From: Kangiella sp.
GTDB taxonomy: Bacteria; Pseudomonadota; Gammaproteobacteria; Enterobacterales; Kangiellaceae
Assembly: GCF_014762745.1 (NCBI RefSeq)
Contig: NZ_JABURJ010000058.1
Location: 1-52,256 of the forward strand
DNA: 52,256 bases
Direction: 5' to 3'
The notes below the pieces were generated by a model that saw only the letters and a list, made by a program, of their open reading frames with translations, did no database searches and was not told the DNA's origin. Position 1 is the stretch's first letter. Every line of letters begins with the position of its first letter. Below, in pieces: positions 9,482-28,409 of the stretch. The translations under genes and the position numbers were made by a program.

Positions 9482-9490
9482 GGGATACGA

Positions 9491-9952: not shown

Positions 9953-9961
9953 GGATATTGA

Positions 9962-11302
9962 ATGAGCAACAAGGTTGTCTGGTCACAAGGTTTATTCCTG
10001 ACGCCAGAACATTTTCAGCAGCAGGATCGATATAACGATTATCAGATTAAAAGGCTGACTCAGGCGCTGACACCACATGGCTTTGGCTTTAGTCAGTTAA
10101 AGTTAAATCAAGAGGGTCTGTTGCAGGGAAAAATTGGGATCAAAACAGCCAGCGGTATTTTGCAGGATGGCACCTATTTCAGCATGCCAGAAACGCACAG
10201 GCTTCCCGCCATGCTGGATCTGTCGGAAGTGGACGGAATTAATGACAAGCGGATCATGCTGGCTATTGCAGAAAATACCGATCACTCAAAGCAGGTAGCG
10301 CAGGAATTTGCCAGTCAATCCAGCAAACGTTATCGCAAGGAGCTGAAGCAGGTAAGCAGCATTAATGAAGGGGAAGATAGTGATGCCACTCTAGAAATTG
10401 CAGAGGAAAACTTTTGCTTAATTGTTGAGGGGAAAAGTCAGCAAGGCTATGAGTGTTTACCGATAGCTCGAATCAAAGAACAAAAACAGGATGGCAGCAT
10501 TGAGTTGGAGGAAGATTTTGTACCCGTTGTTTTAAATATTCAGGCCAGTGAGGTATTACGCAGTAGACAGCTTAGCCTGATCAGCTTGCTTGAACATAGA
10601 AGAGAAAAGTTGGCAGCAAAGGTTCTGGGTGTTGATAACAGCACCACCAGTAGCATTCATAACTACCTGATCCTGCAATTGCTGAATAAAAACCTGGCCA
10701 GATTACATCAGTTGATGGAGCAGGAGCAGGTGATGCCCTATGAAGTCTATATGGAACTGGTCAATCTGGAAGCTGAGCTGGCAACCTTCTATGGGCAGGG
10801 CCGAAAGCCAGCAAAGCAGCTGCCCTATACGCATAAAAATGTCGATCAATGCTTTAGTCGTGTAGAGATCACGATTAAACAATATCTAAGTCATGTGCTG
10901 GATGAAAGTGCCCATGAAATCAACCTCGAAGAAAAAGGCTACGGTATCAAAGTTGCAAATATTGATCAGGTTGAGCTGTTTAAGCAGGCCAGCTTTGTGC
11001 TGGCAGCGAGAGCTGAAATGGCTACTCGTGAATTAAAAGAGCAGTTACCACGGCAAATAAAAATAGGCAGCCTGAGCAATATCAGACAATTGGTAAACGC
11101 ACAGCTCCCAGGTATTAACTTGTCAGAATTATCAGTAGCACCGCGTGAAGTTCCGGTAAAAAAAGAATATAGCTATTTTGCCATTGATCAGCGTTCGCCA
11201 CTGTGGGCAGAAAATACCAATTCAAGAAGTATTGCTTTTCACGTATCGGGAGATTTCCCGGGGCTGGATGTGGAGCTTTGGGCAATTAAAAATGAAGCAT
11301 AA
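9962..11302 (+). CDS. tssK: TssK, type VI baseplate-to-membrane-complex connector
   Basis: TssK (VasE/ImpJ) is a cytoplasmic trimer that links the baseplate to TssL/TssM. The N-terminal signature VVWSQGLFLTPEHFQQQDRY is the hallmark of the family. The C-terminal region ends with the expected FHVSGDFPGLDVELWAIK strand-rich piece. Length 446 matches the family. Its place between tssJ and tssL is the common J-K-L order. Confidence 0.95.
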   Translation: MSNKVVWSQGLFLTPEHFQQQDRYNDYQIKRLTQALTPHGFGFSQLKLNQEGLLQGKIGIKTASGILQDGTYFSMPETHRLPAMLDLSEVDGINDKRIMLAIAENTDHSKQVAQEFASQSSKRYRKELKQVSSINEGEDSDATLEIAEENFCLIVEGKSQQGYECLPIARIKEQKQDGSIELEEDFVPVVLNIQASEVLRSRQLSLISLLEHRREKLAAKVLGVDNSTTSSIHNYLILQLLNKNLARLHQLMEQEQVMPYEVYMELVNLEAELATFYGQGRKPAKQLPYTHKNVDQCFSRVEITIKQYLSHVLDESAHEINLEEKGYGIKVANIDQVELFKQASFVLAARAEMATRELKEQLPRQIKIGSLSNIRQLVNAQLPGINLSELSVAPREVPVKKEYSYFAIDQRSPLWAENTNSRSIAFHVSGDFPGLDVELWAIKNEA

Positions 11303-11335
11303 CCATAGATAACAAGGGATTAACAAAAGAGAAAG

Positions 11336-12655
11336 ATGAAAAATATGGATAGAACAATTCTGGTACCAAGGCCGGGAGGGATACAGCGACCAATCGACAG
11401 TAATGAGCAGACACTGGAGCCAGATTTAAACCGTGGACACAAGATTCCGTTAGCTGCTTTCAAGATTGGGGTAAATCCAATTATCGATGCCGCCACAACC
11501 TTACTCAGTCTTGCCATAGAGTTAAAGCAGGCGACCCAGATCAGTAACATCAATATGCTGCACAAACAGTGTATGGCACACATAAAAGAATTTGAGCAGC
11601 AGCTACGTCAGGATGAAACTGATGCAGACACCATTGCTGAAGTGCGTTATGCGATCTGTTCCTTGCTGGATGAAATTGTCTTGAATGCCCCCTGGGGCGC
11701 AAACAGTATCTGGAGTACTAAAAGTCTGCTCAGTGTGTTCTATAAGCAAACCTGGGGTGGAGAACAATTTTTTAAGATTATCGATGAGAGAGTCAAGAAT
11801 CCGCTTAACAACCAATATCTACTAGAGTTGCTCTTCTTGTGTTTACAACTGGGGTTTAAAGGCAAGTATCGGGTGCAGGAGAATGGATTTGAAAGGCTGG
11901 AAGTGGAAAAAGAAAGGTTGTTTGCTGTTCTGAAGAAAGTACAACCGGAACATAGCAAGGAGCTGTCACCCCATTGGCGTTCAAATGTTACAGATCTGAT
12001 AGAGAATCAGCGACGAATTCCACTGTGGGCGGTTGCTGTTTTGAGTGTGGCTATTCTACTTGGGGTTTATCTAAATTACAGCTATCAGCTAAGTCGACAG
12101 GCTGAGCCAGTGTACAACAACATTGCCGGATTGGTCCCTGACGCACCTGTGAATCAGGAGACAAGTAAAACCGTCATCAATTATGCGGAGCGGTTAAGAC
12201 AGCTGTTAAATACGGAAATAGAGCGTGGGGTATTGCAGGTAGTGGAAGATCTGGATCATGTGGCAATCATTATGACCAGTAATCAGATGTATTCCTCTGC
12301 GAGCGCGCAACTGAATGAAAACAGTATCGCCATCATTGAAAAAATTGGTCAGATTGCGACCAGCACACCTGGCCACATTCAGGTAGTCGGACATAGTGAT
12401 GATCAAAAAATATTCACGGCTAAATACCATTCTAACTGGGAACTGTCATTAGCAAGAGCAAACTCGGTGGTACGTATTTTAAGTCAGAACCAAAATCTGG
12501 CTGGTCGAGTAAGTGCAGAAGGTCGTGGTGCTGCGGAACCCAGAGTGCCAAACGATAGCGATCAGAACAGAGCACTGAACCGACGTGTGGAAATTTTGTT
12601 ATGGGTCAAAAATGGATTGGATGAACAGGCAACAATGGAAGTGAGCGAGCGTTAG
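11336..12655 (+). CDS. tssL: TssL with C-terminal OmpA/Pal-like domain
   Basis: An inner membrane protein of the type VI membrane complex (DotU/IcmH family). The N-terminal cytoplasmic DotU domain spans about residues 45-220, with the family stretch YAICSLLDEIVLNAPWG. One membrane helix follows (about 222-245). The periplasmic part ends in an OmpA-like peptidoglycan-binding domain (about 325-430; HSDDQK, NWELSLARA, NRRVEILL). This is the extended form of TssL that carries its own cell wall anchor, so no separate TagL is needed. The gap to tssM is one base (TAGTATG). Confidence 0.93.
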   Translation: MKNMDRTILVPRPGGIQRPIDSNEQTLEPDLNRGHKIPLAAFKIGVNPIIDAATTLLSLAIELKQATQISNINMLHKQCMAHIKEFEQQLRQDETDADTIAEVRYAICSLLDEIVLNAPWGANSIWSTKSLLSVFYKQTWGGEQFFKIIDERVKNPLNNQYLLELLFLCLQLGFKGKYRVQENGFERLEVEKERLFAVLKKVQPEHSKELSPHWRSNVTDLIENQRRIPLWAVAVLSVAILLGVYLNYSYQLSRQAEPVYNNIAGLVPDAPVNQETSKTVINYAERLRQLLNTEIERGVLQVVEDLDHVAIIMTSNQMYSSASAQLNENSIAIIEKIGQIATSTPGHIQVVGHSDDQKIFTAKYHSNWELSLARANSVVRILSQNQNLAGRVSAEGRGAAEPRVPNDSDQNRALNRRVEILLWVKNGLDEQATMEVSER

Positions 12656-12656
12656 T

Positions 12657-15600
12657 ATGGCTGGAATAATAAAAAAGTTTGGTAGGGTAATAACCCACAA
12701 AATGACATTGATAAGTCTTGTGATCCTCGCTGTTATAGCCGTAGTCTGGTTCGGTGGTCCATTAATCAGTATTGGTGGTTATGAGGTATTGAGCAGCGTA
12801 GCGGCAAGACTTAGTCTGTTGCTGATAATTGCCTGTGTCTGGCTGACAGTCAAAATGTGGAGGTTACAGCAGGCGGGCCGAAAAAATAAAAAACTAATGC
12901 AGCACATTTCAAAAGAGGATCAGGAACAGCTGGATATAGAGGAGTCTTCCGGTGATGAAATTGCAGTGCTAGAGAATAGAATGTCAGATGCATTGCAGTA
13001 TCTGAAAAAAAGTGATTTTAAAGGCAAGAACCTCTATCAACTACCCTGGTACCTACTAATTGGTCCTCCTGGAGCCGGGAAAACGACTAGCATCATTAAT
13101 TCTGGATTGAACCTGCCACTGGCAGACGAGTTTGGCGCTAGTCCGATTAAAGGAGTTGGCGGTACGCGCAACTGTGACTGGTGGTTCACCGATGATGCAA
13201 TATTGCTGGACACAGCTGGACGTTATACCACGCAGGATAGTTATCAGGAAGTTGACTCCAGAGCATGGCATGGTTTTTTAAATCTGCTGAAAAAAACTCG
13301 ACCTATGCGACCTGTTAATGGTGCCATAGTCACCATCAGCATTGCTGAGTTACTACAGCAATCTCAGTCAGAGTTAAACGAGTTGGCCGGAACCATCCGT
13401 AAAAGAGTTCAGGAATTGAAGATGCAGCTGGGGATTAATATCCCAGTATACCTGGTGTTAAGTAAGGGTGACTTGTTGGCTGGGTTTAATGAACTGTTTG
13501 AGGATATTTCTCGTGAGGAACGGGAAGAGGTATTAGGTTTAACCTTTGAAGTAGGAGAAGATTTTTCCCACCATAAAGCGGTTGATAAATTTAATAAATA
13601 TTTTGTAGAGCTGATACAAAATATTGAACGAAAGTTATTAAAGAAACTGCAGCAGGAAAAAAGCGAACAAAGACGAGCACTAATCTATAGCTTCCCGCGT
13701 CAGTTACGTCTGGCCCAGAAAAATATTGATGACTTTATCAAGATTGCCTTTAGTCAAAATCGCTACGAAGAGCCAATTCTGTTAAGAGGTGTTTATCTAA
13801 CCAGTGCGACACAAGAAGGTACGCCGATCAACCGCATCGGGCGAGATATTTCAAACACCTTTGGCTTCAAACCGGAAAGAGTCAGTACCTGTAACGGGGA
13901 AGGTAAAGGTTATTTTATCAAACGTTTATTGAAAGATGTCATCTTCAAAGAAGATAAGCTGGTAGGCGTTAATATTGCCTATCAGAAACGTCAGCGCCTG
14001 ATCCAACGAATTGGCTACGGGGTGGCGGGATTTTGTCTGGTCACCTTCAGTTATCTATGGTCATACAGTTATGCGAATAACAAGCAGTTAATCACTAGCA
14101 CTTCATCCCTGGTCACAGAATATAACCTGGCAAGCAGCGGTGGTATTACCGACAAATCGAACCTGTTGGAATTGAATGGTGGCCTGAATGTGTTAAAAAA
14201 ATTCACCAACCAGATTATCGAAAATAAAAATGCATTAAGCGAAGGCTTTGGGTTATATCAGGGTGATAAATTTAGTGGTGTTACCCAGCAAGTTTATAAC
14301 AAAGGTTTGGCCAATTACTTTGGACCTTATCTGAAAAGCAGCCTGGAAAAGGAAATGCTTCAGGCTAAGCAACATAATGACTATTTGTATGAGCTACTAC
14401 GAATTTACCTGATGTTCTATCTGCCTCAGCATAAAGAAGAAAAGGATATCGCGTCTTTATTTGAGCATTTATGGCGTCGGGATTATCCTGGTGAGATCAA
14501 TGAGGAGTTGCGCAATGATCTAAGAGCTCATTTAGGCTACTTCCTGAGCGAGCAGATGAGCTTGCCTGAGCAGGATCGCAAGCTGGTTAACTTTGCACAG
14601 GAAAAGTTAAGCCAGGTGTCGTTAGTTGACCGTGTTTACAACAGCATTCTCGATAACTACCTCAATGCAATGCCGGAGTTTAAGCCAAGCGATTATTTGT
14701 CGCAGCAGGTGGAAAATTACTTCTATAGAAAAAGTGGTAAATCATTGCGTGAAGGCGTGCCGGGTCTGTATACGCAGGCTGGCTATCATGCTGTCTTCAA
14801 GCGTGAGAGCAAAAAAATCAGTGAGATTCTTTCAAAAGACTCCTGGGTGTTACCGACGGATAATGCCGGCAGTCTGGATAAACTGTCGATACTTGATATC
14901 CAGGATCAGGTGCGTGAGAAGTATTTCAATGATTACATCTTTTACTGGAAAGAATTGATCAATGATCTGGCGGTAAGAGAGTTCTCAACACCGGAAGAAG
15001 GCGCTTTGATGCTACAGGAGCTGACCGGTGTCAAGGCCCCGATTGAACGGTTGTACTCGGCAGTGCGTGATAACGTCATGCTGGCCCGTCCCAAAGATAA
15101 AGGCATCAACATGGATGCGGCAAAAGACATAGCTGAAACCGCGGCTCCCTCCCGTGTCGCCAATAATGCCAACCGATTTGAGCGATTGATCCCTGATAGT
15201 GCTGATATTGATGCAGCACCAGAGCAGGTCGTGAATGATGCATTTTACGACATTATTCAGTATGTAGGAGAGCCAAACGGTAACAGCCCTTTAAAGCAGA
15301 GCCTGGGCGCACTTAAAAATATGCAGGTGTTTCTTGAGTCAATCAGTAACGCCAATAATGCTGAAGAAAAAACCTACGAAGTAACCAGTAGTCCACAGGC
15401 TGCCAGCATTATCAGTGAGCTGGAGAAAGAAGCCAGCGTGACACCTCAACCAATGAGCGAATGGTTGGGCAAGGTTGAGAACAGCGGTAAAACGCTAACC
15501 AATACGGGAACCTATTCTTACCTCAATAACTTATGGAAAACAGAGGTGCTATCAGAATGTCGACGCGCGATTGAAGGAAGATACCCGGTCAATAAGCGCA

Positions 15601-16208
15601 GCAGAAAAGACATTACTCTGGATGATTTCAGAAGCTTCTTCTCCTATGGCGGAACCATTGATCGCTTCTTTAACCAACATCTAAGTGTATTTGTTGACAC
15701 CTCGCGTGGCCGCTGGCGACTGCATAAAGATATTGGTATCAGTAATTACACCTTAAGACAGCTGGAAAAAGCAAAAGCCATCAGAGAAAGCTTTTTTGTC
15801 AGAAATGGGACGGATATTGCGGTGAACTTTACCTTAAAGCCATCCAGTCTTAGCGTTAACGCGGGACAGGTACTGGTTGATATTGAAGGCCAGATTTTGT
15901 CTTACCGCCATGGTCCATTACGCGCCTATCCCACCCGCTGGCCAGGACCTAAACCGCAGGTTGCAACTTCGATTGCTTTTACCCCAACTGATGGTGGACA
16001 AACTGAAACCGTAAGGACTACCGGTTTCTGGAGTTTGTTCCGACTGCTGGATAGAGCAAAACTAAAAAAAACACTGGCATACGATAAGTTTTTGTTGGAG
16101 TTCAAGCATGGCGAATTTGATGCAAGCTTCGAACTACAGGCGCATAGTGTTAACAACCCATTCTTTGGTTCAGATTTGGAGGGGTTCAACTGCCCGACAG
16201 ATTTATGA
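12657..16208 (+). CDS. tssM: TssM (IcmF), large inner membrane protein of type VI secretion
   Basis: TssM bridges the inner membrane complex to TssJ at the outer membrane. Two N-terminal membrane segments (about 13-33 and 40-62) are followed by a cytoplasmic GTPase-like domain with an intact Walker A, GPPGAGKT (136-143), and a LLDTAGRY segment acting as Walker B/switch. A third helix lies at about 447-466. The rest, to residue 1183, is the periplasmic IcmF-related and C-terminal beta domain that contacts TssJ. Full length and uninterrupted. It overlaps tagF by four bases (ATGA). Confidence 0.95.
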   Translation: MAGIIKKFGRVITHKMTLISLVILAVIAVVWFGGPLISIGGYEVLSSVAARLSLLLIIACVWLTVKMWRLQQAGRKNKKLMQHISKEDQEQLDIEESSGDEIAVLENRMSDALQYLKKSDFKGKNLYQLPWYLLIGPPGAGKTTSIINSGLNLPLADEFGASPIKGVGGTRNCDWWFTDDAILLDTAGRYTTQDSYQEVDSRAWHGFLNLLKKTRPMRPVNGAIVTISIAELLQQSQSELNELAGTIRKRVQELKMQLGINIPVYLVLSKGDLLAGFNELFEDISREEREEVLGLTFEVGEDFSHHKAVDKFNKYFVELIQNIERKLLKKLQQEKSEQRRALIYSFPRQLRLAQKNIDDFIKIAFSQNRYEEPILLRGVYLTSATQEGTPINRIGRDISNTFGFKPERVSTCNGEGKGYFIKRLLKDVIFKEDKLVGVNIAYQKRQRLIQRIGYGVAGFCLVTFSYLWSYSYANNKQLITSTSSLVTEYNLASSGGITDKSNLLELNGGLNVLKKFTNQIIENKNALSEGFGLYQGDKFSGVTQQVYNKGLANYFGPYLKSSLEKEMLQAKQHNDYLYELLRIYLMFYLPQHKEEKDIASLFEHLWRRDYPGEINEELRNDLRAHLGYFLSEQMSLPEQDRKLVNFAQEKLSQVSLVDRVYNSILDNYLNAMPEFKPSDYLSQQVENYFYRKSGKSLREGVPGLYTQAGYHAVFKRESKKISEILSKDSWVLPTDNAGSLDKLSILDIQDQVREKYFNDYIFYWKELINDLAVREFSTPEEGALMLQELTGVKAPIERLYSAVRDNVMLARPKDKGINMDAAKDIAETAAPSRVANNANRFERLIPDSADIDAAPEQVVNDAFYDIIQYVGEPNGNSPLKQSLGALKNMQVFLESISNANNAEEKTYEVTSSPQAASIISELEKEASVTPQPMSEWLGKVENSGKTLTNTGTYSYLNNLWKTEVLSECRRAIEGRYPVNKRSRKDITLDDFRSFFSYGGTIDRFFNQHLSVFVDTSRGRWRLHKDIGISNYTLRQLEKAKAIRESFFVRNGTDIAVNFTLKPSSLSVNAGQVLVDIEGQILSYRHGPLRAYPTRWPGPKPQVATSIAFTPTDGGQTETVRTTGFWSLFRLLDRAKLKKTLAYDKFLLEFKHGEFDASFELQAHSVNNPFFGSDLEGFNCPTDL

Positions 16209-16996
16209 TGAATAAGAATGTGGCTCGATTCGGATGTTTCGGAAAAATGAGAAGTTGTGGTGATTTTGTTAGTCGCCACATTCCTTATTCGATTCAGGAT
16301 CGATTTGATCAGTGGTTAGAAGAAGGCCTTGCCGAGACTCGAGAAAGGTTCAAGCAGCAGTGGCTTGACTACTACCTTACCAGCCCTATCTGGCGTTTTA
16401 TAATAAAAGATTCCCTATCTGATGCAACGCTGTTTGGCAGCATGATGCCAAGTCTGGATAAAGTTGGTCGTTATTATCCACTGGTGATCATTAGCACACT
16501 TGAAAAAGGGGCCTTATTGGATATGGCGCAGTGTGAGGCTATTGAAGAGCTGATGCTTGATACGCTGACCAACTCACTGGAGATTAATGAATTGGATGAG
16601 CGGCTACAGACTTTAAGTCAAAGCTCCTTTGCCGGCGGAAAAGTTTCAGTCGCAGATCTGGTTGAGAACAGCGGGAAAGAACTAGAGCAGCGAGCTCAGG
16701 AGATTGCCAATAGACTCTGTTCAGACTTTTTCAGTTATGAAGATGAAATTATCTCCCCGGATGTTTTCTATCATGAAACTGAGGCTGACCGGGACTATAC
16801 CAGTATCTGGTGGACAAAAGGTTCTGAGCACATGGGGCCAACTATTCTGCTGTGCCATGACCTACCTCCAATTTGTGGAATTCATGCAACCCTGGATGGC
16901 AATTGGCAAGCCTCGGGGTGGCGGTCATTTGATGACAAACAAAGTCAATTAATAACTGAAGATGCAAAATTATCAATGGAAGAGTGCTGTGATTGA
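16205..16996 (+). CDS. tagF: TagF, type VI post-translational repressor
   Basis: TagF proteins hold the type VI machine inactive until signals relieve them, in some systems by binding the FHA protein. The N-terminal FGCFGKMRSCGDFVSR (about residues 8-23) matches the family pattern G-x-x-GK-x-P-x-x-GDF. The proline is replaced by Met here. The middle motif GRYYPLVI and the C-terminal TSIWWTKGS are also typical. Length 263 is normal for the N-terminal-domain form. It overlaps tssM by four bases and the phosphatase gene by up to 35 bases. Confidence 0.88.
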   Translation: MMNKNVARFGCFGKMRSCGDFVSRHIPYSIQDRFDQWLEEGLAETRERFKQQWLDYYLTSPIWRFIIKDSLSDATLFGSMMPSLDKVGRYYPLVIISTLEKGALLDMAQCEAIEELMLDTLTNSLEINELDERLQTLSQSSFAGGKVSVADLVENSGKELEQRAQEIANRLCSDFFSYEDEIISPDVFYHETEADRDYTSIWWTKGSEHMGPTILLCHDLPPICGIHATLDGNWQASGWRSFDDKQSQLITEDAKLSMEECCD

Positions 16997-17816
16997 AGCT
17001 GAGCAGGATAAAACAACAATTGATTACCGTTGGCTATCGGCAGCAACAACGCATGTTGGTGCTGTACGAGAAGTAAATGAAGATAATCAGATAGAAAAGC
17101 CTGAGATTGGATTATGGGTCGTTGCCGATGGTATGGGGGGACATAGTGCCGGTGATGTTGCCAGCGGTATGGTTGTCGATGAACTTTCCACTGTAAGAAG
17201 AACCGGCAACAACGAAGAATTTATCGAGCGCGTGATAGAAGTCTTAAGTATTACCAATCAGAAATTAAGACAGCTGGCGTTCCAGAAATTTGACAAGCAG
17301 GCGGTAATGGGCACTACCGTTGTGGTTTTAATCATTCATGAAAACCGCTTCACCATATTGTGGGCAGGGGATAGCCGCGTCTATCGATATCGAAACCACA
17401 CATTACAACAGTTAACCCGTGATCATAGTCAGGTAAACGATATGCTTGATTCAGGTTTGCTGGCAGAAGATGAGGTGGAAGATCACCCTTTGGCGAATGT
17501 CATTACGCGAGCGATAGGAGCTTCTCAAACACTGAACCTGGATCGAATTGACGGTGAAATTCAGCATGGTGATATTTTTATGCTGTGCAGTGATGGACTA
17601 AATAAGGAACTTTCTGATCAGGAAATTTCAGCCTTTTTCAGTTCTGGAGATGTGGATGAAATCAATAAAGCACTCATTCATTCCGCTTTAGTGCGTGGAG
17701 CGCAGGATAACATCACCGCAATTTCTGTGCGGGTGGAAGGGACTGTGGCAAATGATCAAACCATACCTGCGCTAAGTGGGCAAACTGGCGAAGAGAGTAC
17801 CATCAATGGATATTGA
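16962..17816 (+). CDS. pppA: PP2C-type Ser/Thr phosphatase of the type VI locus (PppA-like)
   Basis: A metal-dependent phosphatase that would reverse the kinase encoded at 5614-7698. PP2C motifs appear in order: REVNEDN (about 36-42), VADGMGGHSAGD (54-65), GTTVVVLI, WAGDSRVYRYR, LTRDHSQV, CSDGLNKEL and GAQDNITAISV. All metal-binding Asp residues look present. The ATG at 16962 overlaps tagF by 35 bases and has a weak ribosome site. A GTG at 16989 (VIEAEQDK) has GGAAGAG four bases upstream and may be the true start. The end overlaps tssA by 11 bases. Confidence 0.9.
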   Translation: MQNYQWKSAVIEAEQDKTTIDYRWLSAATTHVGAVREVNEDNQIEKPEIGLWVVADGMGGHSAGDVASGMVVDELSTVRRTGNNEEFIERVIEVLSITNQKLRQLAFQKFDKQAVMGTTVVVLIIHENRFTILWAGDSRVYRYRNHTLQQLTRDHSQVNDMLDSGLLAEDEVEDHPLANVITRAIGASQTLNLDRIDGEIQHGDIFMLCSDGLNKELSDQEISAFFSSGDVDEINKALIHSALVRGAQDNITAISVRVEGTVANDQTIPALSGQTGEESTINGY

Positions 17817-18882
17817 AGCTTACATCGAACCGATTAGTGAGGAACAACCTTGTGGTCGTGATCTGCGCAATGATACCAGTGTTGAATCGATTTATTACAA
17901 GTTAAGAGATGCCCGTAATTCTGCGCGTAAAGCAGAAAGAATTGCCGTAGCAGATGTTGATGAAGCTGGAGCCGTTGATGGAAACTGGTATCAGCTTAAA
18001 GAGTTGTCTTTAGATGCTTTAAAGAATGAAACCAAAGATCTTGAGGTAGTAGCCTGGTTTATTGAGGCTACTACACGTATTGACGGCATCAAAGGTTTTA
18101 TTCGTGGCTATCAACTGGCAAGCGAATTAATCTGTCGATTCTGGGACGATGGAATTTATCCGGCTATAGATGAGGATGGCATCGAAACCCGGGTTTCTCC
18201 CTTGTCAGGTCTCAATGGCTTTGATGGCGCTGGAACCCTGATAACGCCCATTAAATCAGTGCTACTGACCCAAAATGATGACTACCTGCCGGCGTGTGTC
18301 TGGCAGTATGAGCAGGCCATACTGCTGGAGCGATTGGATGCGGAGAAAAAACAGAGCCGTATCGATAATGGCGCTATCCCTCTGGAGTCGATTAAAAAAT
18401 CCGTAGTGCTAACTCCTGATAGTTTCTACCAGGAACTGGTCAGTGATCTGCAGACTGCACTTGAAACCTATGAAGCATTTACTCAAGAATTTGATCGCGT
18501 CTGTGAGTCATTGCCCCAACCTACTTCTAATATCAGAAATGCACTAAGAGAGTGCTTGCAGGCTGTTGAATACTTGGCTAAAGACAAGCTGGCAGTAACT
18601 GAAGACACTGTTAGTCAGAAGCACGATGAAAGCGGCGCAGAAACAGCAAGTTATCAGATAGAAGGGATTAATCGACGCGAACAGGCAGTAAATACTTTGC
18701 GTCAGGTAGCCGAATATTTCCGAAAAACCGAACCTCACTCACCTATTTCCTATCTGTTGGAACAGAGTATTCGTTGGAGCGATTTATCGCTTCCAGAACT
18801 GTTGCAGCAATTAATTCCAGAAGAAGGTGCGCGTGAGCAATATTTTAAACTAACAGGGATCGATGTGGGTAGTAACCAGTAA
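17806..18882 (+). CDS. tssA: TssA, type VI baseplate/sheath priming protein
   Basis: TssA (ImpA/VasJ family) primes baseplate and tail assembly. The N-terminal ImpA_N domain is recognisable from YIEPISEEQPCGRDLRND and the segment DLEVVAWFIEA..GFIRGYQL..FWDDGIYP. The C-terminal part is helical and ends in PHSPISYLLEQSIRWSDLSLPELL, as in short TssA proteins. I chose the ATG at 17806, giving 358 residues and the family N-terminus, over a GTG at 17776. It overlaps pppA by 11 bases and is followed 30 bases later by tssB. Confidence 0.9.
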   Translation: MDIEAYIEPISEEQPCGRDLRNDTSVESIYYKLRDARNSARKAERIAVADVDEAGAVDGNWYQLKELSLDALKNETKDLEVVAWFIEATTRIDGIKGFIRGYQLASELICRFWDDGIYPAIDEDGIETRVSPLSGLNGFDGAGTLITPIKSVLLTQNDDYLPACVWQYEQAILLERLDAEKKQSRIDNGAIPLESIKKSVVLTPDSFYQELVSDLQTALETYEAFTQEFDRVCESLPQPTSNIRNALRECLQAVEYLAKDKLAVTEDTVSQKHDESGAETASYQIEGINRREQAVNTLRQVAEYFRKTEPHSPISYLLEQSIRWSDLSLPELLQQLIPEEGAREQYFKLTGIDVGSNQ

Positions 18883-18912
18883 ATTTGAACCCTAAAGCTA
18901 AAGGAGAACCAC

Positions 18913-19428
18913 ATGGCGAGTATACATGACCGTTTGAAAAAAGTGCGTAAACCACGAGTCCATATTACCTATGATGTCGAAACTGACGGTGCAGTACTGG
19001 AAAAAGAACTGCCTTTTGTTGTTGGTGTGATGGGTGACTTTAGTGCTGACTCAACCAAGCCAGTGAAGCCGCTAAAAGAGCGTCGCTTTATCCAAATTGA
19101 TAAAGACAATATCAATGAGGTGATGCGCAATATGGCCCCGGGTCTTAATATCAAAGTGGAAAACACTTTACAGAATGATGGTTCAGAGATGGCCGTCGAT
19201 CTGAAGTTTGATTCGATGGATGATTTTGAGCCTGCAGCAATCGTTGAGCAGGTAGAACCGTTGAAAAAGTTGATGGACACGCGTAACAAGCTACGTGACC
19301 TGATGACTAAAATTGATCGCTCAGAAGAGCTTGAAGGTTTAATGGAAAAGGTATTGCAAAACAGCGATGACCTTAATGCTCTGGCCGAAGCACTTGGGCA
19401 AATTGAAGACAAGGGAGGTAATGAATAA
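18913..19428 (+). CDS. tssB: TssB, small sheath subunit of type VI secretion
   Basis: TssB (VipA/ImpB) forms the contractile sheath with TssC. The N-terminus [26 protein letters not shown] and the [11 protein letters not shown] stretch are diagnostic. The C-terminal helix (about 105-165) carries the TssC- and ClpV-contacting region. Length 171 is usual. An excellent AAAGGAGA ribosome site precedes the ATG. The stop shares one base with the tssC start. Confidence 0.96.
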
Positions 19429-20918
19429 TGACTGAAATGGAAAAAATTTCCTCCAGGGAACAGATAGTCGAACAGAGCCAGGACATACTAAGCCAGGCGA
19501 TCGCAGCGACCAAACAAACTGAAGCCAGTCGTGCTGAAGAGTTGTTAAGAGCTTTAACTTCAGAAGCGATGAAGGGGACTGTCACCTGGAACAAAAACCT
19601 GACGGTAACTTTCAAAGAAGCTATCGATAAGATTGATGAAGCGCTGTCAGCACAGTTATCAAAAATTATGCACAATGAGCGTTTCCAGAAGCTGGAAGGC
19701 TCATGGCGTGGTTTGCAGTATTTGGTGCAAAATACTGATACTTCAGTGTCCATGAAGCTAAAAGTCATTAACCTGCCAAAGCGCGAATTATTTAAAGATT
19801 TAAGTAAAGCGGTAGAGTTTGATCAAAGCCAGCTGTTCAAGAAAATTTATGAGAGTGAGTTCGGTACTGCTGGTGGTGAGCCGTTTGGTGCCTTGATTGG
19901 TGATTATGAATTTACTAATCACCCAGAAGATATAGAGACATTGGAGCTGACTTCGAATGTGGCTGCTGCAGCATTTGCTCCTTTCATCTCGGCCTCATCA
20001 CCTGAGATGTTCGGCTTTAATGATTGGACAGAATTATCAAAACCGCGCGATCTTGAGAAAATTTTTGACTCACTGGAATATGCCCGCTGGCGTGGCTTCC
20101 GTGACTCGGAAGACTCACGTTTTGTAACCCTTACTGCACCACGTGTGCTGGCACGACTTCCGTATGGTGAACAAACCCGCCCGATTGAAGAGTTTGCCTT
20201 CGAAGAATTGCCAGTTGATAGTGACACTAAAGTAGCCAACAGCGTGGATAATAAAGATTATTGCTGGATGAATGCATCTTATGTTCTGGGCAGCAAGTTG
20301 ACTCAGGCATTCACCGAGCATGGCTGGTGTACCGCCATTCGCGGTGCGGAAGGTGGCGGTAAAGTCACTTCATTGCCCATGCACAACTTCCTGAGTGATG
20401 ATGGTGATATGGATATGCAATGTCCGACGGAAGTTGGTATTACTGACCGTCGTGAAGCTGAACTAAGCAAACTGGGCTTCTTGCCATTGTGCCATTATAA
20501 GAATACAGACTATGCGGTGTTCTTTGGCTCCAATACCACTCAGCGACCAAAGCGCTATGATAGCCCTGATGCAACTGCCAACGCCGATATTTCATCACGT
20601 TTGCCTTATATCATGGCGACTTCTCGTTTTGCTCATTACTTAAAAGTATTGGCCCGCGACAAGATCGGTTCTTTCATGGAGCCGGAAGATTGTGAGGCAT
20701 GGTTAAACCGCTGGATCCTGAACTATGTCAATGCTGATGAGGCGGCTGGTCAGGAATCTCGTGCCAAATACCCATTGGCTGAGGCTAAGGTGGAAGTAGA
20801 AGAAGTGCCAGGCAGTCCTGGTGTTTATCATGCCAAAGCCTGGTTAAAGCCATGGCTACAGCTGGAAGAGTTGAGCACGTCATTGCGTTTGGTAGCCAAA
20901 ATTCCAGAAAGTAAGTAA
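19428..20918 (+). CDS. tssC: TssC, large sheath subunit of type VI secretion
   Basis: TssC (VipB/ImpC) is the major sheath protein. Diagnostic pieces include [37 protein letters not shown], the [15 protein letters not shown] stretch and the C-terminal [28 protein letters not shown]. Length 496 is normal. It is the last gene of the operon: a strong terminator follows 13 bases after the stop and polA comes next. The usual downstream genes (hcp, tssE, tssF, tssG, tssH) are not here. Confidence 0.96.
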
Positions 20919-21044: not shown

Positions 21045-23783
21045 ATGTCTGAAAAAAAATCACCATTTATCCTAGTTGACGGATCTTCCTACCTGTTCCG
21101 CGCCTATCATGTACCGCAATTACAACGAATGACAAACTCCAAGGGCATGATGACAGGTGCCGTGTTTGGTGTTATCAATATGCTGAAGAGTCTGATTAAA
21201 GAGTATCAGCCAGAATATATGGCGGTGGTGTTTGATGCTAAGGGTAAGACATTCCGCAATGATCTCTACCCGGAATACAAAGCCAACCGTCCACCCATGC
21301 CCGAAGACTTACGCCAACAGATTGAACCTATTCATGAAATTGTAAAAGCAATGGGGCTACCTCTACTAGTGATCGATGGCGTTGAAGCTGATGATGTGAT
21401 TGGCACATTGGCCAAGCAAGCCTGTAAAGAAGGTCGCGAAACTCTGATATCCACAGGTGACAAGGATATGGCTCAGCTGGTCAGCGATCATGTCACTTTG
21501 ATCAATACCATGGATAAAAACAATCCGATTACCGATAAAGACCGAGTGGTTGAAAAGTTTGGTGTCAGGCCAGAGCAGATAATCGACTATCTGGCATTGG
21601 TAGGCGATAAAGTCGATAACATCCCCGGGGTCGATAAGTGCGGGCCAAAAACCGCAGTTAAATGGTTGGAGCAATACGATAGCTTGCAGGGTGTGATTGA
21701 ACATGCTGATGAAATTGGTGGCAAGATTGGTGAGAACCTGCGTGATGCAATTGAGAGACTGCCGCTTTCTTATGAGCTCGCAACGATAAAGTTAGATTGT
21801 GATTTAGAGTTTCAGCCTGAAGATTTAACTATTGATAGTCCGGATTTAAAAGCACTAAAAGAGCTTTACGGCGAAATGGAGTTTAAACGTTGGCTAACGG
21901 ATGTATTAAAAGAGCTGGGCGAGCCTGGTTCGATAGACGCAAGCGATGAAGACGGTGCATCCATCGCTCTGGTTGATCGTTCAAAATATGAAACTATCCT
22001 TGAGCAAAAAGAACTGGACAAATGGATAGAAAAATTAAGCGAAGCAGACCTGTTTGCCTTTGATACCGAAACTACCAGCCTGAATTATATTGAAGCAGAG
22101 CTGGTAGGGATGTCATTTGCGCTGGACACTGGTGAGGCAGCCTACTTGCCTGTAGCGCATGCTTATATGGGTGCGCCAACACAGCTGGACCGGGATGAGG
22201 TTTTAAAGCAGCTAAAGGGTCTTCTGGAATCAGAAAAGCATAAAAAGGTCGGGCAGAATTTGAAGTACGATATGAGCGTGCTGGCAAACTATGGAATAGA
22301 ACTAGGTGGCATAGAGTTCGATACCATGCTTGAGTCCTACTGTCTGAATAGCGTTGCCAGTCGTCATGATATGGATACGCTTGCATTGCATCATCTAAAT
22401 CACGTTAACATTAAGTTTGAAGAAATCGCGGGCAAAGGCAAAAATCAACTAACGTTCGATCAAATTGAAATTGAAAAAGCAGCACCATATGCAGCCGAAG
22501 ATGCTGACATTACCATGCGTTTGCATAAAAAATTATGGCCTGAACTGAAAGAAAATGATGGACCGACTCAGGTTTTCAAGCACATTGAGATGCCACTTTT
22601 AAGAGTCTTATCCAAAGTTGAGCGTAATGGTGTTCTGGTTGATGGTAAACTGCTGCTGGAAAAAAGTCATTTATTTGAGAAACGTTTAAAGGAGCTTGAA
22701 AAAGAAGCATTTGAAATAGCGGGTAAAGAGTTTAATCTAGGCTCACCCAAGCAATTACAGACTATTTTTTATGAAGAGCTGGGTCTGCCGATTTTGAAGA
22801 AAACGCCAAAAGGCCAGCCATCAACTGCAGAAGAAGTATTGCAGGAATTAGCGTTAGATTATCCGCTGCCAAAGTTAATTCTGGAACACAGAAGTTTAAG
22901 CAAATTGAAATCGACTTATACCGATAAGCTACCGCAAATGATTAATGATAAGACCGGTCGCGTTCATACCTCTTATCATCAGGCTGTGGCAGCGACAGGA
23001 AGACTGTCATCAACTGATCCAAATCTACAGAATATTCCGATCAAGACAGAAGAAGGACGCAGTATTCGCACCGCATTTATTGCGCCAAAAGGATGCAAAA
23101 TTTTAGCGGCGGATTATTCACAAATTGAGCTTCGTATCATGGCACACCTGTCGCAAGACAAAGGTTTGCTTAAAGCATTTGAAGAAGGACTGGATGTTCA
23201 CTCGGCGACCGCTGCAGAAGTATTTGATGTGCCATTGGAAGAAGTGACTTCCAATCAACGTCGTAACGCCAAGGCGATCAATTTTGGTCTGATTTACGGT
23301 ATGTCAGCTTTTGGTTTGGCCAAACAAATCGATACCGACAGAAACACGGCACAAGATTACATCAACACTTATTTTGCCCGTTATCCAGGTGTAGAGACCT
23401 ATATGGAGTCAACTCGACAGAAAGCCGCAGATTTAGGCTATGTGGAAACGCTTTATGGTCGCCGCTTATATTTACCGGAGATTCATTCAAAAAACGGCAT
23501 GCGCAGAAAAGCAGCCGAACGCACCGCGATTAATGCGCCAATGCAAGGCAGTGCTGCAGATATTATCAAGCTGGCCATGCTGGAGGTGGATAAATGGCTT
23601 AAGGACGTGAAAGGCATCAAGATGATCATGCAGGTGCACGATGAACTGGTTTTTGAAGTTGAAGAAAGCCAGTTAAAATTGGCTCAAAAGAAGATCCCAG
23701 AATTAATGGAGAGTGTTGCTGAATTATCAGTTCCCTTGATTGCCGATGTGGGCGTGGGCGACAACTGGGACGAAGCACACTAA
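21045..23783 (+). CDS. polA: DNA polymerase I
   Basis: Repair and primer-removal DNA polymerase. All three domains are present. The 5'-3' exonuclease covers about 1-290 (LVDGSSYLFRAYH, VVFDAKGKTFRNDLYPEYKANR, GVEADDVIGTLA). The 3'-5' exonuclease covers about 320-515 with the intact motif FDTETTS (Asp and Glu kept), so proofreading should work. The polymerase covers about 530-912 with motif A (AADYSQIELRIMAHLS), motif B (RRNAKAINFGLIYGMS) and motif C (MQVHDELVFEV). Length 912 is normal. Its downstream neighbours, a small RNA and then engB, keep the gammaproteobacterial polA-engB order with extra genes in between. Confidence 0.98.
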   Translation: MSEKKSPFILVDGSSYLFRAYHVPQLQRMTNSKGMMTGAVFGVINMLKSLIKEYQPEYMAVVFDAKGKTFRNDLYPEYKANRPPMPEDLRQQIEPIHEIVKAMGLPLLVIDGVEADDVIGTLAKQACKEGRETLISTGDKDMAQLVSDHVTLINTMDKNNPITDKDRVVEKFGVRPEQIIDYLALVGDKVDNIPGVDKCGPKTAVKWLEQYDSLQGVIEHADEIGGKIGENLRDAIERLPLSYELATIKLDCDLEFQPEDLTIDSPDLKALKELYGEMEFKRWLTDVLKELGEPGSIDASDEDGASIALVDRSKYETILEQKELDKWIEKLSEADLFAFDTETTSLNYIEAELVGMSFALDTGEAAYLPVAHAYMGAPTQLDRDEVLKQLKGLLESEKHKKVGQNLKYDMSVLANYGIELGGIEFDTMLESYCLNSVASRHDMDTLALHHLNHVNIKFEEIAGKGKNQLTFDQIEIEKAAPYAAEDADITMRLHKKLWPELKENDGPTQVFKHIEMPLLRVLSKVERNGVLVDGKLLLEKSHLFEKRLKELEKEAFEIAGKEFNLGSPKQLQTIFYEELGLPILKKTPKGQPSTAEEVLQELALDYPLPKLILEHRSLSKLKSTYTDKLPQMINDKTGRVHTSYHQAVAATGRLSSTDPNLQNIPIKTEEGRSIRTAFIAPKGCKILAADYSQIELRIMAHLSQDKGLLKAFEEGLDVHSATAAEVFDVPLEEVTSNQRRNAKAINFGLIYGMSAFGLAKQIDTDRNTAQDYINTYFARYPGVETYMESTRQKAADLGYVETLYGRRLYLPEIHSKNGMRRKAAERTAINAPMQGSAADIIKLAMLEVDKWLKDVKGIKMIMQVHDELVFEVEESQLKLAQKKIPELMESVAELSVPLIADVGVGDNWDEAH

Positions 23784-23816
23784 AGTTTATTGCGAGAAAT
23801 CGCTGTAAAACAATCA

Positions 23817-23896
23817 AGAAATGTGAACCGCTCGCGGTAGCTTCTGTGAGTTACTTTTAAGCAAAAGACGGCTATCGTTAGCCTGTTCACATTTCT
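23817..23896. repeat. 80-base nested inverted-repeat element downstream of polA
   Basis: Perfect 12-base arms AGAAATGTGAAC (23817-23828) and GTTCACATTTCT (23885-23896) enclose a second stem CGGTAGC/GCTATCG (23835-23841 with 23871-23877, one G-T pair) and an inner hairpin CTTTT-AAGC-AAAAG (23854-23867). There is no T run after it, so it is not an ordinary terminator. A third GTTCACATTT occurs at 24164-24173, beyond the small RNA. Confidence 0.7.
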
Positions 23897-23962
23897 AACC
23901 ACTCTTTACAAAAGCTGACACTTTTCTTGCAACAAACACCTTAAACCAATGTCTATTGTATT

Positions 23963-24082
23963 GAGCGCAACGAATGCGCTCCCCGCGACTCCCTCCTTCC
24001 AGCGGGACTTGCAGTTCGGCCTCCCCAAGCCGGATTGCGTATTTGGGGTGGTGCCTTGTTCCCTCAGGCCACCCCTTTTTTT
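23963..24082 (+). ncRNA. Small RNA between polA and engB with C-rich loops (Spot 42/ErsA position)
   Basis: About 120 bases fold by eye into four consecutive hairpins. H1 is GAGCGCA-ACGAA-TGCGCTC (23963-23981). H2 is CCCGC..GCGGG (23982-24006) with a 15-base loop containing CTCCCTCCTTCC. H3 is a 10-pair stem (24011-24038) with loop CTCCCCAA. The terminator is GGGGTGG..CCACCCC (24045-24075) with TTCCCTC in its loop and seven T. A TATTGT box (23954-23959) sits just before the predicted 5' end. The location downstream of polA is that of Spot 42 in enterics and ErsA in Pseudomonas. Three exposed UCCC motifs suggest pairing with ribosome binding sites of target mRNAs, which is inference. Confidence 0.8.
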
Positions 24083-24290
24083 ATGCCGGAATGCTTCTTA
24101 AAAGGCGTTAAAATTTATAGATTAAGGTAGCAAGGTGTCTTCATAAAAAGATAAGCCCGGCTAAGTTCACATTTTTCAAATTTGCATTGGCAATTGGTTT
24201 GCGCTGCTCAATGCGCTGATATAGTTTTTATTGGTCATCGTCTGATGACGGTGATTACAGTTAATGAAATTTAACGATAGGAGAAAATAG

Positions 24291-24797
24291 ATGAAAAAAA
24301 TAATGGCTACATTGCTTGTTTTTCTTGGTCTGGCGAATATGGCTGGAGCGGTAGAAAAGAAAGATCAAAGAGGCCAGGCAGCAAATAATGACGTTGCAGC
24401 AGTGGATTTAGCCTGGGAATTGGCACCAGTGAAAAGTTATAACGAACTCATCAATATGGCTGCGAAAGAGTCTCCCTTGGATGCATTAAGCCCAGCTGCC
24501 AAACAACGTTTTATTGATAGCGTTGTGTTTACAGAAGAAGGTGTTGCAGGATTTTACTATAAAGACTTAGAACTTGAGCTAACGCCTAGTGAAATTCATA
24601 AGATACTGAGTTTGATTGGGGCACAACATATGACGTCAGCTTTTAAGAAAGCCAGAGTGGAAACAAAAGCTGATTATTCGATCTTATATAGTAAAGATCC
24701 AAAATCTCCAGATGGAAACTTTTTACTGGATTATTATTGCTACCAAAGGGCCTCCTGTGAAGAGAGTACGGGTAAAGCTTGTACAAAAAACTGTTGA
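24291..24797 (+). CDS. Exported protein of unknown function with Cys-rich C-terminus
   Basis: I do not recognise a family. The 168-residue product starts with a clear signal peptide (MKK, hydrophobic core, cleavage likely after AGA at residue 20). The mature part is mostly helical and charged. The last 21 residues carry four Cys in the pattern C-x5-C-x7-C-x3-C, the only Cys in the protein, which suggests two disulfides or a metal site outside the cytoplasm. An AGGAGA ribosome site lies 7 bases before the ATG. The next gene, 55 bases on, encodes a thioredoxin-like exported protein, so the pair may act together. Confidence 0.7.
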   Translation: MKKIMATLLVFLGLANMAGAVEKKDQRGQAANNDVAAVDLAWELAPVKSYNELINMAAKESPLDALSPAAKQRFIDSVVFTEEGVAGFYYKDLELELTPSEIHKILSLIGAQHMTSAFKKARVETKADYSILYSKDPKSPDGNFLLDYYCYQRASCEESTGKACTKNC

Positions 24798-24852
24798 TTT
24801 AAGTTAAAAATAGGGAGGTGGGTGCTCAGTATTTGAGTGCCCTGCTTATGCC

Positions 24853-25800
24853 ATGAGGATGTTTATTCTAATTCTTGCTATGTTTACTCTTTTTCCGACA
24901 GCACTGTTGGCGACAGAGTGTGACATAAATCTGAAAAGGGATATTACTGATTTAAATATCGAGATCGAAAAAATATTAGAAGAAGAAAGCAAGCAAAGGC
25001 AAAGCCAATCAGATAGATTGACGGATACACGCGGCCTTAGACTCAGAAAGTTTTATGATCAATGTTTGTTGGCGGCTGTCAATGCTACGCCGGTTGCAGA
25101 TTTATCTGTTGCGCAGATAACGGAGCTCTTCAATATAGTCAACGTCATCCACTTTTATGCAGGCGAGAAAGAGCAGGTTGGGTTAGCCAAAAAACTGGTT
25201 GAGGAGCTTGTTGCCCGAAAGGGGGAGCATCAAGTAGTACCAAGATTGTTTGAACTAAGTCAAATGATGGTTCAGTCAAGGTTGTTTGATGAATACAACG
25301 AGCTCGAACTCGACCATCAAGAGCTGTCATTTCCTGCTTTGCCTAAGATCAGTAAATTAGAGAAGACCGAACTCGATGGAAGGCCTATCCTGCAGGTTAC
25401 AGATGAAGGATTGAGCATAATTTCGCATAGATTTCCTTCGGCAGGCTACGTTATTGTGGTTGGTCACCCCTTGTGCCATTTCTCACAAAATGCTCGAAGG
25501 GACATCGCCAGCGATGCAGTTTTATCTAACATCATGCGGCACAAGTCATCTTGGTTAATACCTCCTGGAAGAAGGCTCTACTTTGCCGAAACCTTAGAGG
25601 CAAATCAGGCTAGTAACTTGAGCCCGTTTGCGTACGCTCATGCAAAAAGTGACTGGCCGGAGATTGGTTACTGGGGAACGCCCACGTTTTACTTTTATTA
25701 CAATGGTCAGTTGCGACATCAACTAGTCGGATGGCCAGGAGAAGCTAATATCGCTGAATTAAAGAAAGGTTTGGTCATGATAGGTCTTCTTGAGCGTTAG
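24853..25800 (+). CDS. Exported protein with C-terminal thioredoxin-like fold
   Basis: A 315-residue product with a signal peptide (cleavage probably after LLA, residue 20). The middle (25-170) is helical and unrecognised. The C-terminal part (about 190-315) looks like a thioredoxin fold: strand AGYVIVVGHP, then CHFSQNARRDI as a CxxS-type active site, and later GTPTFYFYYNGQLRHQLVGWP, where the Thr-Pro would be the cis-proline and the segment matches the final strands of thioredoxins. Only one Cys remains at the active site, so it would act as an isomerase- or glutathione-type enzyme or be non-redox. Another ATG lies six bases later. It follows the Cys-rich exported protein and may share its transcript. 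Confidence 0.65.
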   Translation: MRMFILILAMFTLFPTALLATECDINLKRDITDLNIEIEKILEEESKQRQSQSDRLTDTRGLRLRKFYDQCLLAAVNATPVADLSVAQITELFNIVNVIHFYAGEKEQVGLAKKLVEELVARKGEHQVVPRLFELSQMMVQSRLFDEYNELELDHQELSFPALPKISKLEKTELDGRPILQVTDEGLSIISHRFPSAGYVIVVGHPLCHFSQNARRDIASDAVLSNIMRHKSSWLIPPGRRLYFAETLEANQASNLSPFAYAHAKSDWPEIGYWGTPTFYFYYNGQLRHQLVGWPGEANIAELKKGLVMIGLLER

Positions 25801-27791: not shown

Positions 27792-28409
27792 TTATTGAGA
27801 CTGTTCCTCGGACTCTTCAGATGGTTGATACCACTCATCAAGGATTTTGTAGAGTTGATCTAGACCCTCACGCTTAAGCGAAGAAAAGGCTTGTACGGTT
27901 GCTGTTGGGTGTAGTTCCTTAACGGCTTTCTTACACTGCAGGACAGCCTTAGATTTTGCGCCTTGCTTGAGTTTATCGGCTTTACTGAGCAGGCAGTGTA
28001 CGGGCAGTCCCACTTCAGAGGCCCAGGCCAGCATGTCCTGATCGCTATCCTTAAGGAAATGACGAATATCCATTAATAGCACCAATCCTCGCAGGCACTT
28101 ACGTTGCTGCAGATAACGTGATAGCTCTTCCTGCCATTGTAGCTTCATGGCCTCGGGAACCTTGGCATAACCGTAACCCGGCAGGTCAATCAGGCGTCGA
28201 TCTTCGTCGAGAGTAAAGACATTAATCAGTTGAGTGCGGCCCGGCGTTTTACTGGTTCGGGCGAGGCTTTTCTGTTGGGTCAGAGTGTTTAGCGCACTGG
28301 ACTTGCCAGCGTTAGAACGGCCAGCAAAAGCCACCTCAATCCCTTCGTCGGGCGGCAGTTGGGCGAGTTTGGCAGCGCCAAGTAGATATTTAGCAGTCTG
28401 ATAGTTCAT
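27792..28409 (-). CDS. engB: Ribosome biogenesis GTPase EngB (YihA/YsxC)
   Basis: An essential GTPase of large-subunit assembly. G1 [10 protein letters not shown] (about residues 29-38), the G2 Thr in [13 protein letters not shown]3 DLPGYG, G4 SKADKL and G5 SSLKREG are all present. Length 205 is usual. It lies opposite to polA and to the cytochrome c4 gene, as in many gammaproteobacteria, but several genes have come between it and polA. Confidence 0.96.

Follow-up and report, generated by a model that had tools for sequence, protein, structure and literature searches.

A candidate sigmaE-controlled small RNA beside polA in Kangiella and its apparent place in a widespread RNA family

Introduction

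Are the small RNAs that lie beside polA in different bacteria relatives, or has the same locus given rise to similar regulators more than once? The polA position common to sX13, Spot 42 and the alpha-r7 RNAs was already noted in the 2013 paper on sX13, which, in the passages available, posed the question (PMC3771888). Here we take it up for a draft genome of the marine bacterium Kangiella sp. (2.79 Mb in 146 contigs). An initial annotation, made from the letters of one stretch of 52,256 nt (the window, throughout this text), had proposed that a small RNA, unannotated and with its C-rich loops exposed, lies after polA, and had left it as either a relative of the RNAs at this locus or a convergent regulator.

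Results

The candidate RNA occupies 23963–24082 on the plus strand. Its start, placed at about 23960–23963 from the promoter and the first hairpin, lies 179 nt past the stop of polA at 23783. The upstream neighbour polA (21045–23783, plus strand) encodes DNA polymerase I with Pfam DNA_pol_A and exonuclease domains. On the other side, a same-strand ORF begins 208 nt past the RNA, and ORFs at 24291, 24853, 26093 (minus strand) and 27134 separate the RNA from a convergent gene 3.7 kb downstream (27792–28409, minus strand; Pfam MMR_HSR1), which we take to be engB, following the initial annotation. The place first given for the RNA, between polA and engB, was thus accurate on the polA side and loose on the other, where several ORFs intervene. 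Within the 1.5-kb flank, engB is present and convergent in eight of the nine loci examined from Kangiella and genome G020 (L008 and L015–L021; not L003). The ORFs at 24291 and 24853 had no Pfam match; by eye, two ORFs within 24291–25800, between the RNA and engB, have signal-peptide-like starts. Elsewhere in the window, ORFs at 8033–20918 presumably represent a type VI secretion cluster, judged from their translations, that ends just before polA, and a TwoAYGGAY RNA (RF01731, 57.4 bits) lies at 49918–49993 on the minus strand.

The initial reading of 23963–24082 as four tandem hairpins with a strong terminator was confirmed by folding. The minimum free energy was −53.4 kcal/mol, compared with a mean of −36.8 (s.d. 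3.4) for 200 dinucleotide shuffles, none of which was as low (z = −4.83). Hairpin H1 (23963–23981) is followed by H2 (23982–24006), with ACUCCCUCCUUCC in its loop, by H3 (24011–24038), with the loop CUCCCCAA, and by an intrinsic terminator (24045–24082) that consists of a stem-loop at 24045–24075 with a UUCCCU loop and a T7 tail reaching 24082, all on the plus strand. The probability of being unpaired in the ensemble averaged 0.98 for ACUCCCUCCUUCC and was 0.95–1.0 for the UCCCC of H3 and 0.96–1.0 for the UUCCCU of the terminator loop. The CCUCCUU in the H2 loop is the sequence with which the 3′ end of 16S rRNA recognises Shine–Dalgarno sequences. An Rfam search, proposed as a check by the initial annotation, returned no family for the window RNA at the gathering score and none at the right place at E ≤ 10, so a direct Rfam assignment was dropped. 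The initial proposal, a putative small RNA at the polA locus that lacks annotation and exposes C-rich loops, is supported. A small protein was considered and set aside: frames of 33–41 codons run past the end of the RNA in many loci, their starts and stops vary, and single-base indels fall within the RNA (by inspection).

The strongest functional clue, which the initial annotation missed, is a sigmaE-type promoter. A −35 element of ECF/sigmaE type, TTGCAAC (23927–23933, plus strand; identity 0.89), is joined by a poorly conserved spacer of 17 nt (identity 0.58) to the −10 core GTC (23951–23953, plus strand; identity 1.0 over 20 loci). Promoters of ECF sigma factors follow the consensus TGxAAC-N16-GTC, and TTGCAAC-N17-GTC is, as a sequence pattern, the footprint of an ECF/sigmaE-type promoter. 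The form TG[ACG]AAC-N16-18-GTC was found in 31 of the 33 Kangiellaceae loci scored (shuffles: mean 0.19, maximum 2), and the remaining two read GGAAAC or AGAAAC at −35. In looser form the motif is not uncommon: the 52-kb window has 8 matches on its two strands, including the one of the small RNA itself, and 3.5 kb at the rpoE locus has 3 further places on the rpoE strand and 1 on the other. The genome encodes RpoE itself (323 bits; cut-off 236) as well as Hfq (97.9 bits; cut-off 61.7). Its rpoE is preceded, at a distance of about 230 nt, by GGAACTTTTGTACCCTTAAGCGAGTC; the −35 element of the small RNA (TGCAAC) is unlike the GGAAC found there.

Could the RNA be driven instead by sigma70, by another ECF sigma factor or by a response regulator acting through YTTAC repeats, and so respond to another signal? 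Eight further matches to the RpoE model in the same genome, all below the cut-off, mean that several sigma factors could read the TGxAAC/GTC pair, and 32 of the 33 Kangiellaceae loci scored carry YTTAC upstream of the −35 element, compared with a shuffle mean of 8.0 (maximum 14). In the window the repeats form a putative direct-repeat box upstream of the −35 element, CTAAC-N5-TTTAC-N5-CTGAC with 10-bp spacing (23895–23919, plus strand). Paired half-sites 5–6 nt apart were counted, without a shuffle baseline, in 26 of the 33 loci, and the stretch 23899–23926 has an identity of 0.775. The box resembles those of the OmpR/CpxR type, and our guess is that 23895–23919 is a response-regulator site of that type. 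Against a promoter other than sigmaE, the GGAAC/GTC spacing of distant members fits the sigmaE consensus and the reported sigma22 dependence of ErsA. A consensus scan of 23700–24400 found no sigma70 site, and the conserved pair has ECF-type spacing; a sigma70 promoter was therefore rejected. Overall we judge a promoter other than sigmaE to be unlikely and keep the sigmaE reading.

We next looked at how far the RNA is conserved. When 99 genomes were searched at the DNA level, 34 had a match at E ≤ 0.1, many of these matches being short and due to chance. The RNA was matched in 19 of the 20 sampled Kangiella genomes, and the exception, G002, is 55% complete. Across a set of 20 loci (19 from Kangiella and one from a second genus), CCCGCGACTCCCTCCTT is present without mismatch in all, and the stem of H2 and CGACTCCCTCCTT are invariant. 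Column identity was 0.82 for H1, 0.96 for H2, 0.85 for H3, 0.98 for the H3 loop and 0.75 for the terminator. The terminator loop reads UUCCCUC in 13 of the 20 loci (L002–L014) and CACCCUC in L019, and has no C run in six (L015–L018, L020 and L021). The initial claim of a UCCC in each of three loops therefore describes the window RNA, in which all are exposed, but is too broad for the terminator loop, where UCCC is missing from 7 of 20 loci.

Covariation supports two of the hairpins, H1 and H3. Of the 18 pairs in the genus-level alignment A1, which has 18 distinct rows, 8 show changes on both sides (shuffle mean 5.1; 10 of 500 as high), and 27 cells are changed on both sides compared with 9.5 in shuffles (0 of 500 as high); structures slid along the alignment reached at most 5 such cells. 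For H1 these are 3 of 6 pairs in A1 and 6 of 6 in alignment A2, and for H3, 5 of 7 counted pairs. The stem of H2 never varies and is thus neither supported nor contradicted by covariation. In A2 (27 rows), 14 of 18 pairs change on both sides, a count that leans towards the structure because A2 was fitted to the model R1. The initial annotation had tied its proposal to hairpins conserved across related genomes, and this is what was found: a match in 19 of 20 Kangiella genomes, with stems changing on both sides while the flanks drift (identity 0.48 upstream and 0.47 downstream over the 20 loci).

To follow the RNA across the family we used R1, a model of 20 sequences. Of 40 family genomes, 37 matched at E ≤ 1, 33 of them at E ≤ 1e-7. 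Genomes G035 and G038 had E values of 0.004 and 0.04 and scored 33.8 and 31.7 bits with R2, a second model introduced below; two other weak matches (E 0.64 and 0.67) may be chance. In the source genome R1 has a second match, on C78 (24 bits, E 5e-4), which recurs in G013. It runs from the end of one gene into the start of another, lacks the hairpin order by eye and has no R2 match, and was taken as chance. The RNA adjoins polA in L124, L125, L130 and L135. In nine genomes of other genera, 15–20 kb around the RNA was inspected. In eight, polA and engB are both absent from this interval (one of the eight has cyc4, the usual neighbour of engB, near its end); in the ninth, polA lies at a distance of about 4 kb. 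At L138–L146, in other genera of the family that we take to be Aliikangiella-like, the RNA and its promoter are not beside polA. Promoter and RNA are thus kept whether or not polA is near, so that the gene looks autonomous, and from these comparisons the small RNA is probably a free-standing gene. The hairpins might otherwise be part of a neighbouring transcript, as the 3′ UTR or terminator of polA or the leader of the next gene, and the distances of 179 nt and 208 nt to the flanking genes suit such a cis element. We regard this as very improbable: the RNA has a promoter footprint of its own, both are kept in the nine genomes just described, and engB, where it is the next gene, is usually convergent.

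Relatives of the RNA were also detected outside the family. Over 80 named polA loci (3 from Kangiella), R1 gave three further matches at E < 0.01, in the Thiotrichales MAG L026 (7.6e-7), the Thiogranum MAG L048 (8e-4) and the MAG L097 (6e-3), all after polA on its strand and with promoters of GGAAC or TGAAC type. Weaker matches in L059 (inside polA) and L055 (on the other strand) were rejected as chance. The motif count over the 80 loci is soft: 20 carry the motif, compared with 6 when the reverse strand is scored and with a shuffle mean of 7.6 (s.d. 2.5, maximum 17; 200 rounds), and in several cases it sits far from polA, inside neighbouring genes. Six polA loci of Methylococcaceae type (L040, L044, L050, L068, L081 and L096) carry a sigmaE-like motif, 14–16 nt past the polA stop in five of them, and after it C-rich-loop hairpins, in an abbreviated form of the same design.

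When 20 polA loci were scanned with Rfam, anti-hemB (RF02837) fell on the same bases of L026 as R1 (50.7 bits; cut-off 49.5). The same polA–engB gap of L026 holds a c-di-GMP-I riboswitch (2405–2489, 77.9 bits). At a lax threshold RF02837 scored 37.5 bits on L126, 32.6 on L133, 24.9 on L019 and 23.3 on L048, and L048 also matched Pseudomon-1/ErsA weakly (26.8 bits, E 0.41). The C-rich alphaproteobacterial family ar14 scored on L019 as well (31.3 bits, E 0.055).

In a class sample of 229 genomes, RF02837 matched 132 at E ≤ 0.01, only 11 of them above the cut-off, and its weak matches include noise, as 5 of 14 control genomes also match. RF01719 matched 19 genomes (1 above cut-off) and RF02232, the accession of sX13 (PMC12189769, in the part available), matched 10 (2 above cut-off). 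Among the best 30 RF02837 loci, polA was upstream on the same strand in 16, engB convergent in 19 and either in 24. The 19 RF01719 loci, several of which are the same places, had polA upstream in 11, engB convergent in 12 and either in 14. A strict sigmaE-like motif stood 24–32 nt before the match in 20 of the best 30 RF02837 loci, compared with 1 of 30 downstream controls and 0.39 in shuffles (maximum 3 of 30 in 300 rounds); it was missing in the other 10, some of which have a near match by eye. Several places were matched by two of the three families anti-hemB, ErsA and sX13, for example G180:C1, G235:C11, G162:C130, G253:C11 and G153:C31. At L187 (G268:C33:13148–13908), four complete tandem copies lie between polA and engB, each with a GGAAC..GGTC promoter; the anti-hemB model matches all four, the ErsA model one and the sX13 model the other three. 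Close pairs of R2 matches were seen in G204, G245, G247 and G170. At L254 (G112:C26:14602–14731), in a genome that supplied an R2 training locus, the RNA is on the strand opposite to polA, as if the small RNA gene alone had been inverted.

R2 was trained on 11 class loci that RF02837 and RF01719 had detected, with no Kangiellaceae among them. These loci were chosen by eye for the order H1, H2, H3 and terminator, so that R2 leans towards Kangiella-like members, and the structure was drawn by hand on alignment A4, where H1 is for the most part missing from two rows as given, L203 and L195. A MAFFT alignment of 22 loci (A3), in which H1 and H3 were misaligned, was not used. R2 found a single match in the window at E ≤ 10, at 23955–24083 (48 bits, E 7.3e-13), and this was also its sole match in the whole genome at E ≤ 0.001 and at E ≤ 1e-5. 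It recovered all 24 Kangiellaceae loci given (31.7–57.6 bits). The two sX13 loci above the Rfam cut-off scored 32.1 and 33.6 bits, the ErsA locus above cut-off (L186) 24.0 and Spot 42 loci 16–20; the score of L026 is not independent of training row L165. As for noise, a search of 201 kb with R2 returned, apart from nine true matches, one of 17.7 bits. In 278 kb it scored 26.4 bits on the minus strand and 24.4 bits at a place remote from Spot 42, and in 197 genomes of the order it had seven matches of 23–29 bits without polA or engB nearby. With noise reaching 29 bits, only scores above 30 were trusted, which leaves ErsA and Spot 42 undecided by R2; their membership by this route (16–24 bits) was not claimed. 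The window RNA has the traits by which we delimit the set, namely an R2 score of at least 30 bits, a place after polA on the same strand or convergent to engB, and a putative sigmaE-type promoter, which at a fixed distance is a trait of many members and not all.

Across the order, R2 matched 24 genomes at E ≤ 0.001, comprising 13 Kangiellaceae, four strong others (48–72 bits, all beside polA) and the seven in the noise range; the Kangiella genome G015, found by R1, was missed under the stricter filters of this search. In the class it matched 122 of 229 genomes at E ≤ 1e-5, or 111 of 218 once the 11 training genomes are excluded. The 19 non-training loci among its 30 best had polA beside them in 11, engB in 11 and either in 15. 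In the reverse test, R1 was run on 44 loci from class and order; 27 had a match where expected (E ≤ 1), and 15 of these scored at least 25 bits. It missed the ErsA locus L186 and the two sX13 loci above the Rfam cut-off. Elsewhere in the source genome, one candidate (L275, G000:C117:10646–10713) has a hairpin with a CCUCCUU loop and then a strong terminator; the anti-hemB model gives it 32.9 bits and R2 no match, and it is possibly another anti-ribosome-site small RNA.

These searches bear on whether the RNA is a relative of its counterparts or a product of convergence, in which the polA–engB gap favours the birth of small RNAs and the Kangiella RNA works like ErsA or sX13 without a common ancestor. 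Convergence would account for the failure of Rfam to assign the window RNA, for the score of ar14 on L019, since C/U loops are of low complexity, and for the noise-level 24 bits that R2 gives L186; R1 misses that locus and two of sX13, and the R2 training loci were picked for layout. Yet the order of parts is the same, the promoter stands at similar spacing in many loci, the side of engB is mostly the same, all 24 Kangiellaceae loci given are recovered by R2 and 27 of 44 in class and order by R1, and places exist that match two of the three Rfam families, with all three inside one tandem array. We therefore consider convergence rather unlikely. A model from unrelated polA/engB-locus RNAs has the RNA as its single match in the window, which favours a relative over pure convergence. 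The choice first offered is thereby tipped towards kinship, without membership in the Rfam families Spot 42, ErsA, sX13 or anti-hemB as now drawn.

Discussion

We think it probable that the Kangiella RNA is an envelope-stress-induced antisense RNA under sigmaE control that masks ribosome binding sites with its C-rich loops, and a Kangiella member of an ErsA/sX13-like family. Comparison of sequences supports its parts: a promoter footprint, covarying stems, unpaired and conserved C-rich loops, a terminator and a match to a model built outside the Kangiellaceae, on RNAs that mostly sit at polA/engB. Under envelope stress, released RpoE would transcribe the RNA; the H2 loop CUCCCUCCUU and the H3 loop CUCCCCAA would pair with G-rich Shine–Dalgarno regions of selected mRNAs and block their translation, and Hfq, binding at the U-tail, would probably assist the pairing. 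A genome-wide search for exact anti-loop sites (AAGGAGGG-N3-10-ATG) found 6, one in an exported cytochrome-like ORF, compared with 1 for the reversed control. No envelope regulon was evident among these 6 exact sites, which are too weak to use as a target list.

The Kangiella RNA seems to be one member of an RNA family that is widespread and for the most part without annotation. We lean, by a little, towards a single origin for ErsA, sX13, anti-hemB and the Kangiella RNA in one ancestral small RNA gene of the polA–engB gap, often driven by sigmaE, that would act as a general anti-Shine–Dalgarno arm of the envelope stress response. Such a gene would be present in about half of the sampled class genomes, in few of them above an Rfam cut-off, with tandem copies in some (four in one); it would have moved away from polA in some Kangiellaceae and is undetected in most other sampled genomes of the order. 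Homology of ErsA to the remaining RNAs is likely. In the open-access literature we found neither this unification of three Rfam families nor the breadth of the set, and no paper naming both ErsA and sX13 or both Pseudomon-1 and anti-hemB. The Kangiella member is new and the apparent unification seems to be so; the mechanism is not.

Among the known systems, Spot 42 (RF00021) shares the polA–engB position. Its model does not match the window RNA, and the same library finds Spot 42 in L062, L074 and L082. Its regulation differs, with repression by cAMP-CRP according to the title of a cited paper. The alpha-r7 RNAs of alphaproteobacteria, likened here by description only, are reported to lie at the polA locus and to have three stem-loops with C-rich motifs (PMC3771888, passages available).

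Anti-hemB (Burkholderia RNA 7, RF02837) has a first hairpin, UCCCCGCuUCuCCUCCCUGaGCGGG, that closely resembles Kangiella H2. Its model starts at H2 and is without H1; at E ≤ 10 it does not hit the window RNA, and the Kangiellaceae loci L126, L133 and L019 stay below its cut-off of 49.5. The idea that anti-hemB sits beside engB or hemB in betaproteobacteria was abandoned: at the best RF02837 locus (L156), polA and engB are both absent for 1.5 kb around the match, and a UPF0093 gene is close by. In Burkholderia cenocepacia, the accessible part of one study describes anti-hemB as the expressed small RNA ncS04, and CU-rich unpaired stretches of several small RNAs as predicted to cover ribosome binding sites (PMC5688073).

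ErsA of Pseudomonas (RF01719, Pseudomon-1) resembles the Kangiella RNA in lying downstream of polA and in having a CCCC hairpin loop, a C-rich terminator loop and a U-tail, and its locus L186 (121 bits) likewise has a promoter of sigmaE/sigma22 type, TGAACTTCGGGCCAAACAGGCGAGTC. RF01719 does not match the window RNA and has no match in the source genome at E ≤ 0.01. In ErsA, SL1 and SL2 are separated by an unstructured, U-rich domain (PMC8575079, as far as available), where Kangiella has the CUCCCUCCUU hairpin. The available parts of three papers place ErsA in the polA–engB gap and describe it as controlled by sigma22/AlgU and dependent on Hfq (PMC7565897, PMC8575079, PMC7264166).

In Xanthomonadaceae, sX13 (RF02232) similarly lies downstream of polA with C-rich-loop hairpins and a terminator; its three hairpins with C-rich loops have their counterpart in the window RNA, and its locus L235 carries CCUCCCCAA, as does Kangiella H3. 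RF02232 has no match in the source genome at E ≤ 0.01, and the strict sigmaE motif was not found upstream of L235 and L236, the two sX13 loci above the Rfam cut-off. In the passages available, sX13 is reported to be independent of Hfq, and the action of its C-rich loops on G-rich motifs near start codons is shown experimentally (PMC3771888). The link to sigmaE is thus not universal. By analogy, ErsA would be the model for sigma22 control and the use of Hfq, and sX13 the model at the level of the loops. ErsA of Pseudomonas, sX13 of Xanthomonas and anti-hemB of Burkholderia, which have been studied separately, may be one old family, and the prediction that follows is of a widely shared RNA under envelope-stress control, with C-rich loops directed against ribosome binding sites.
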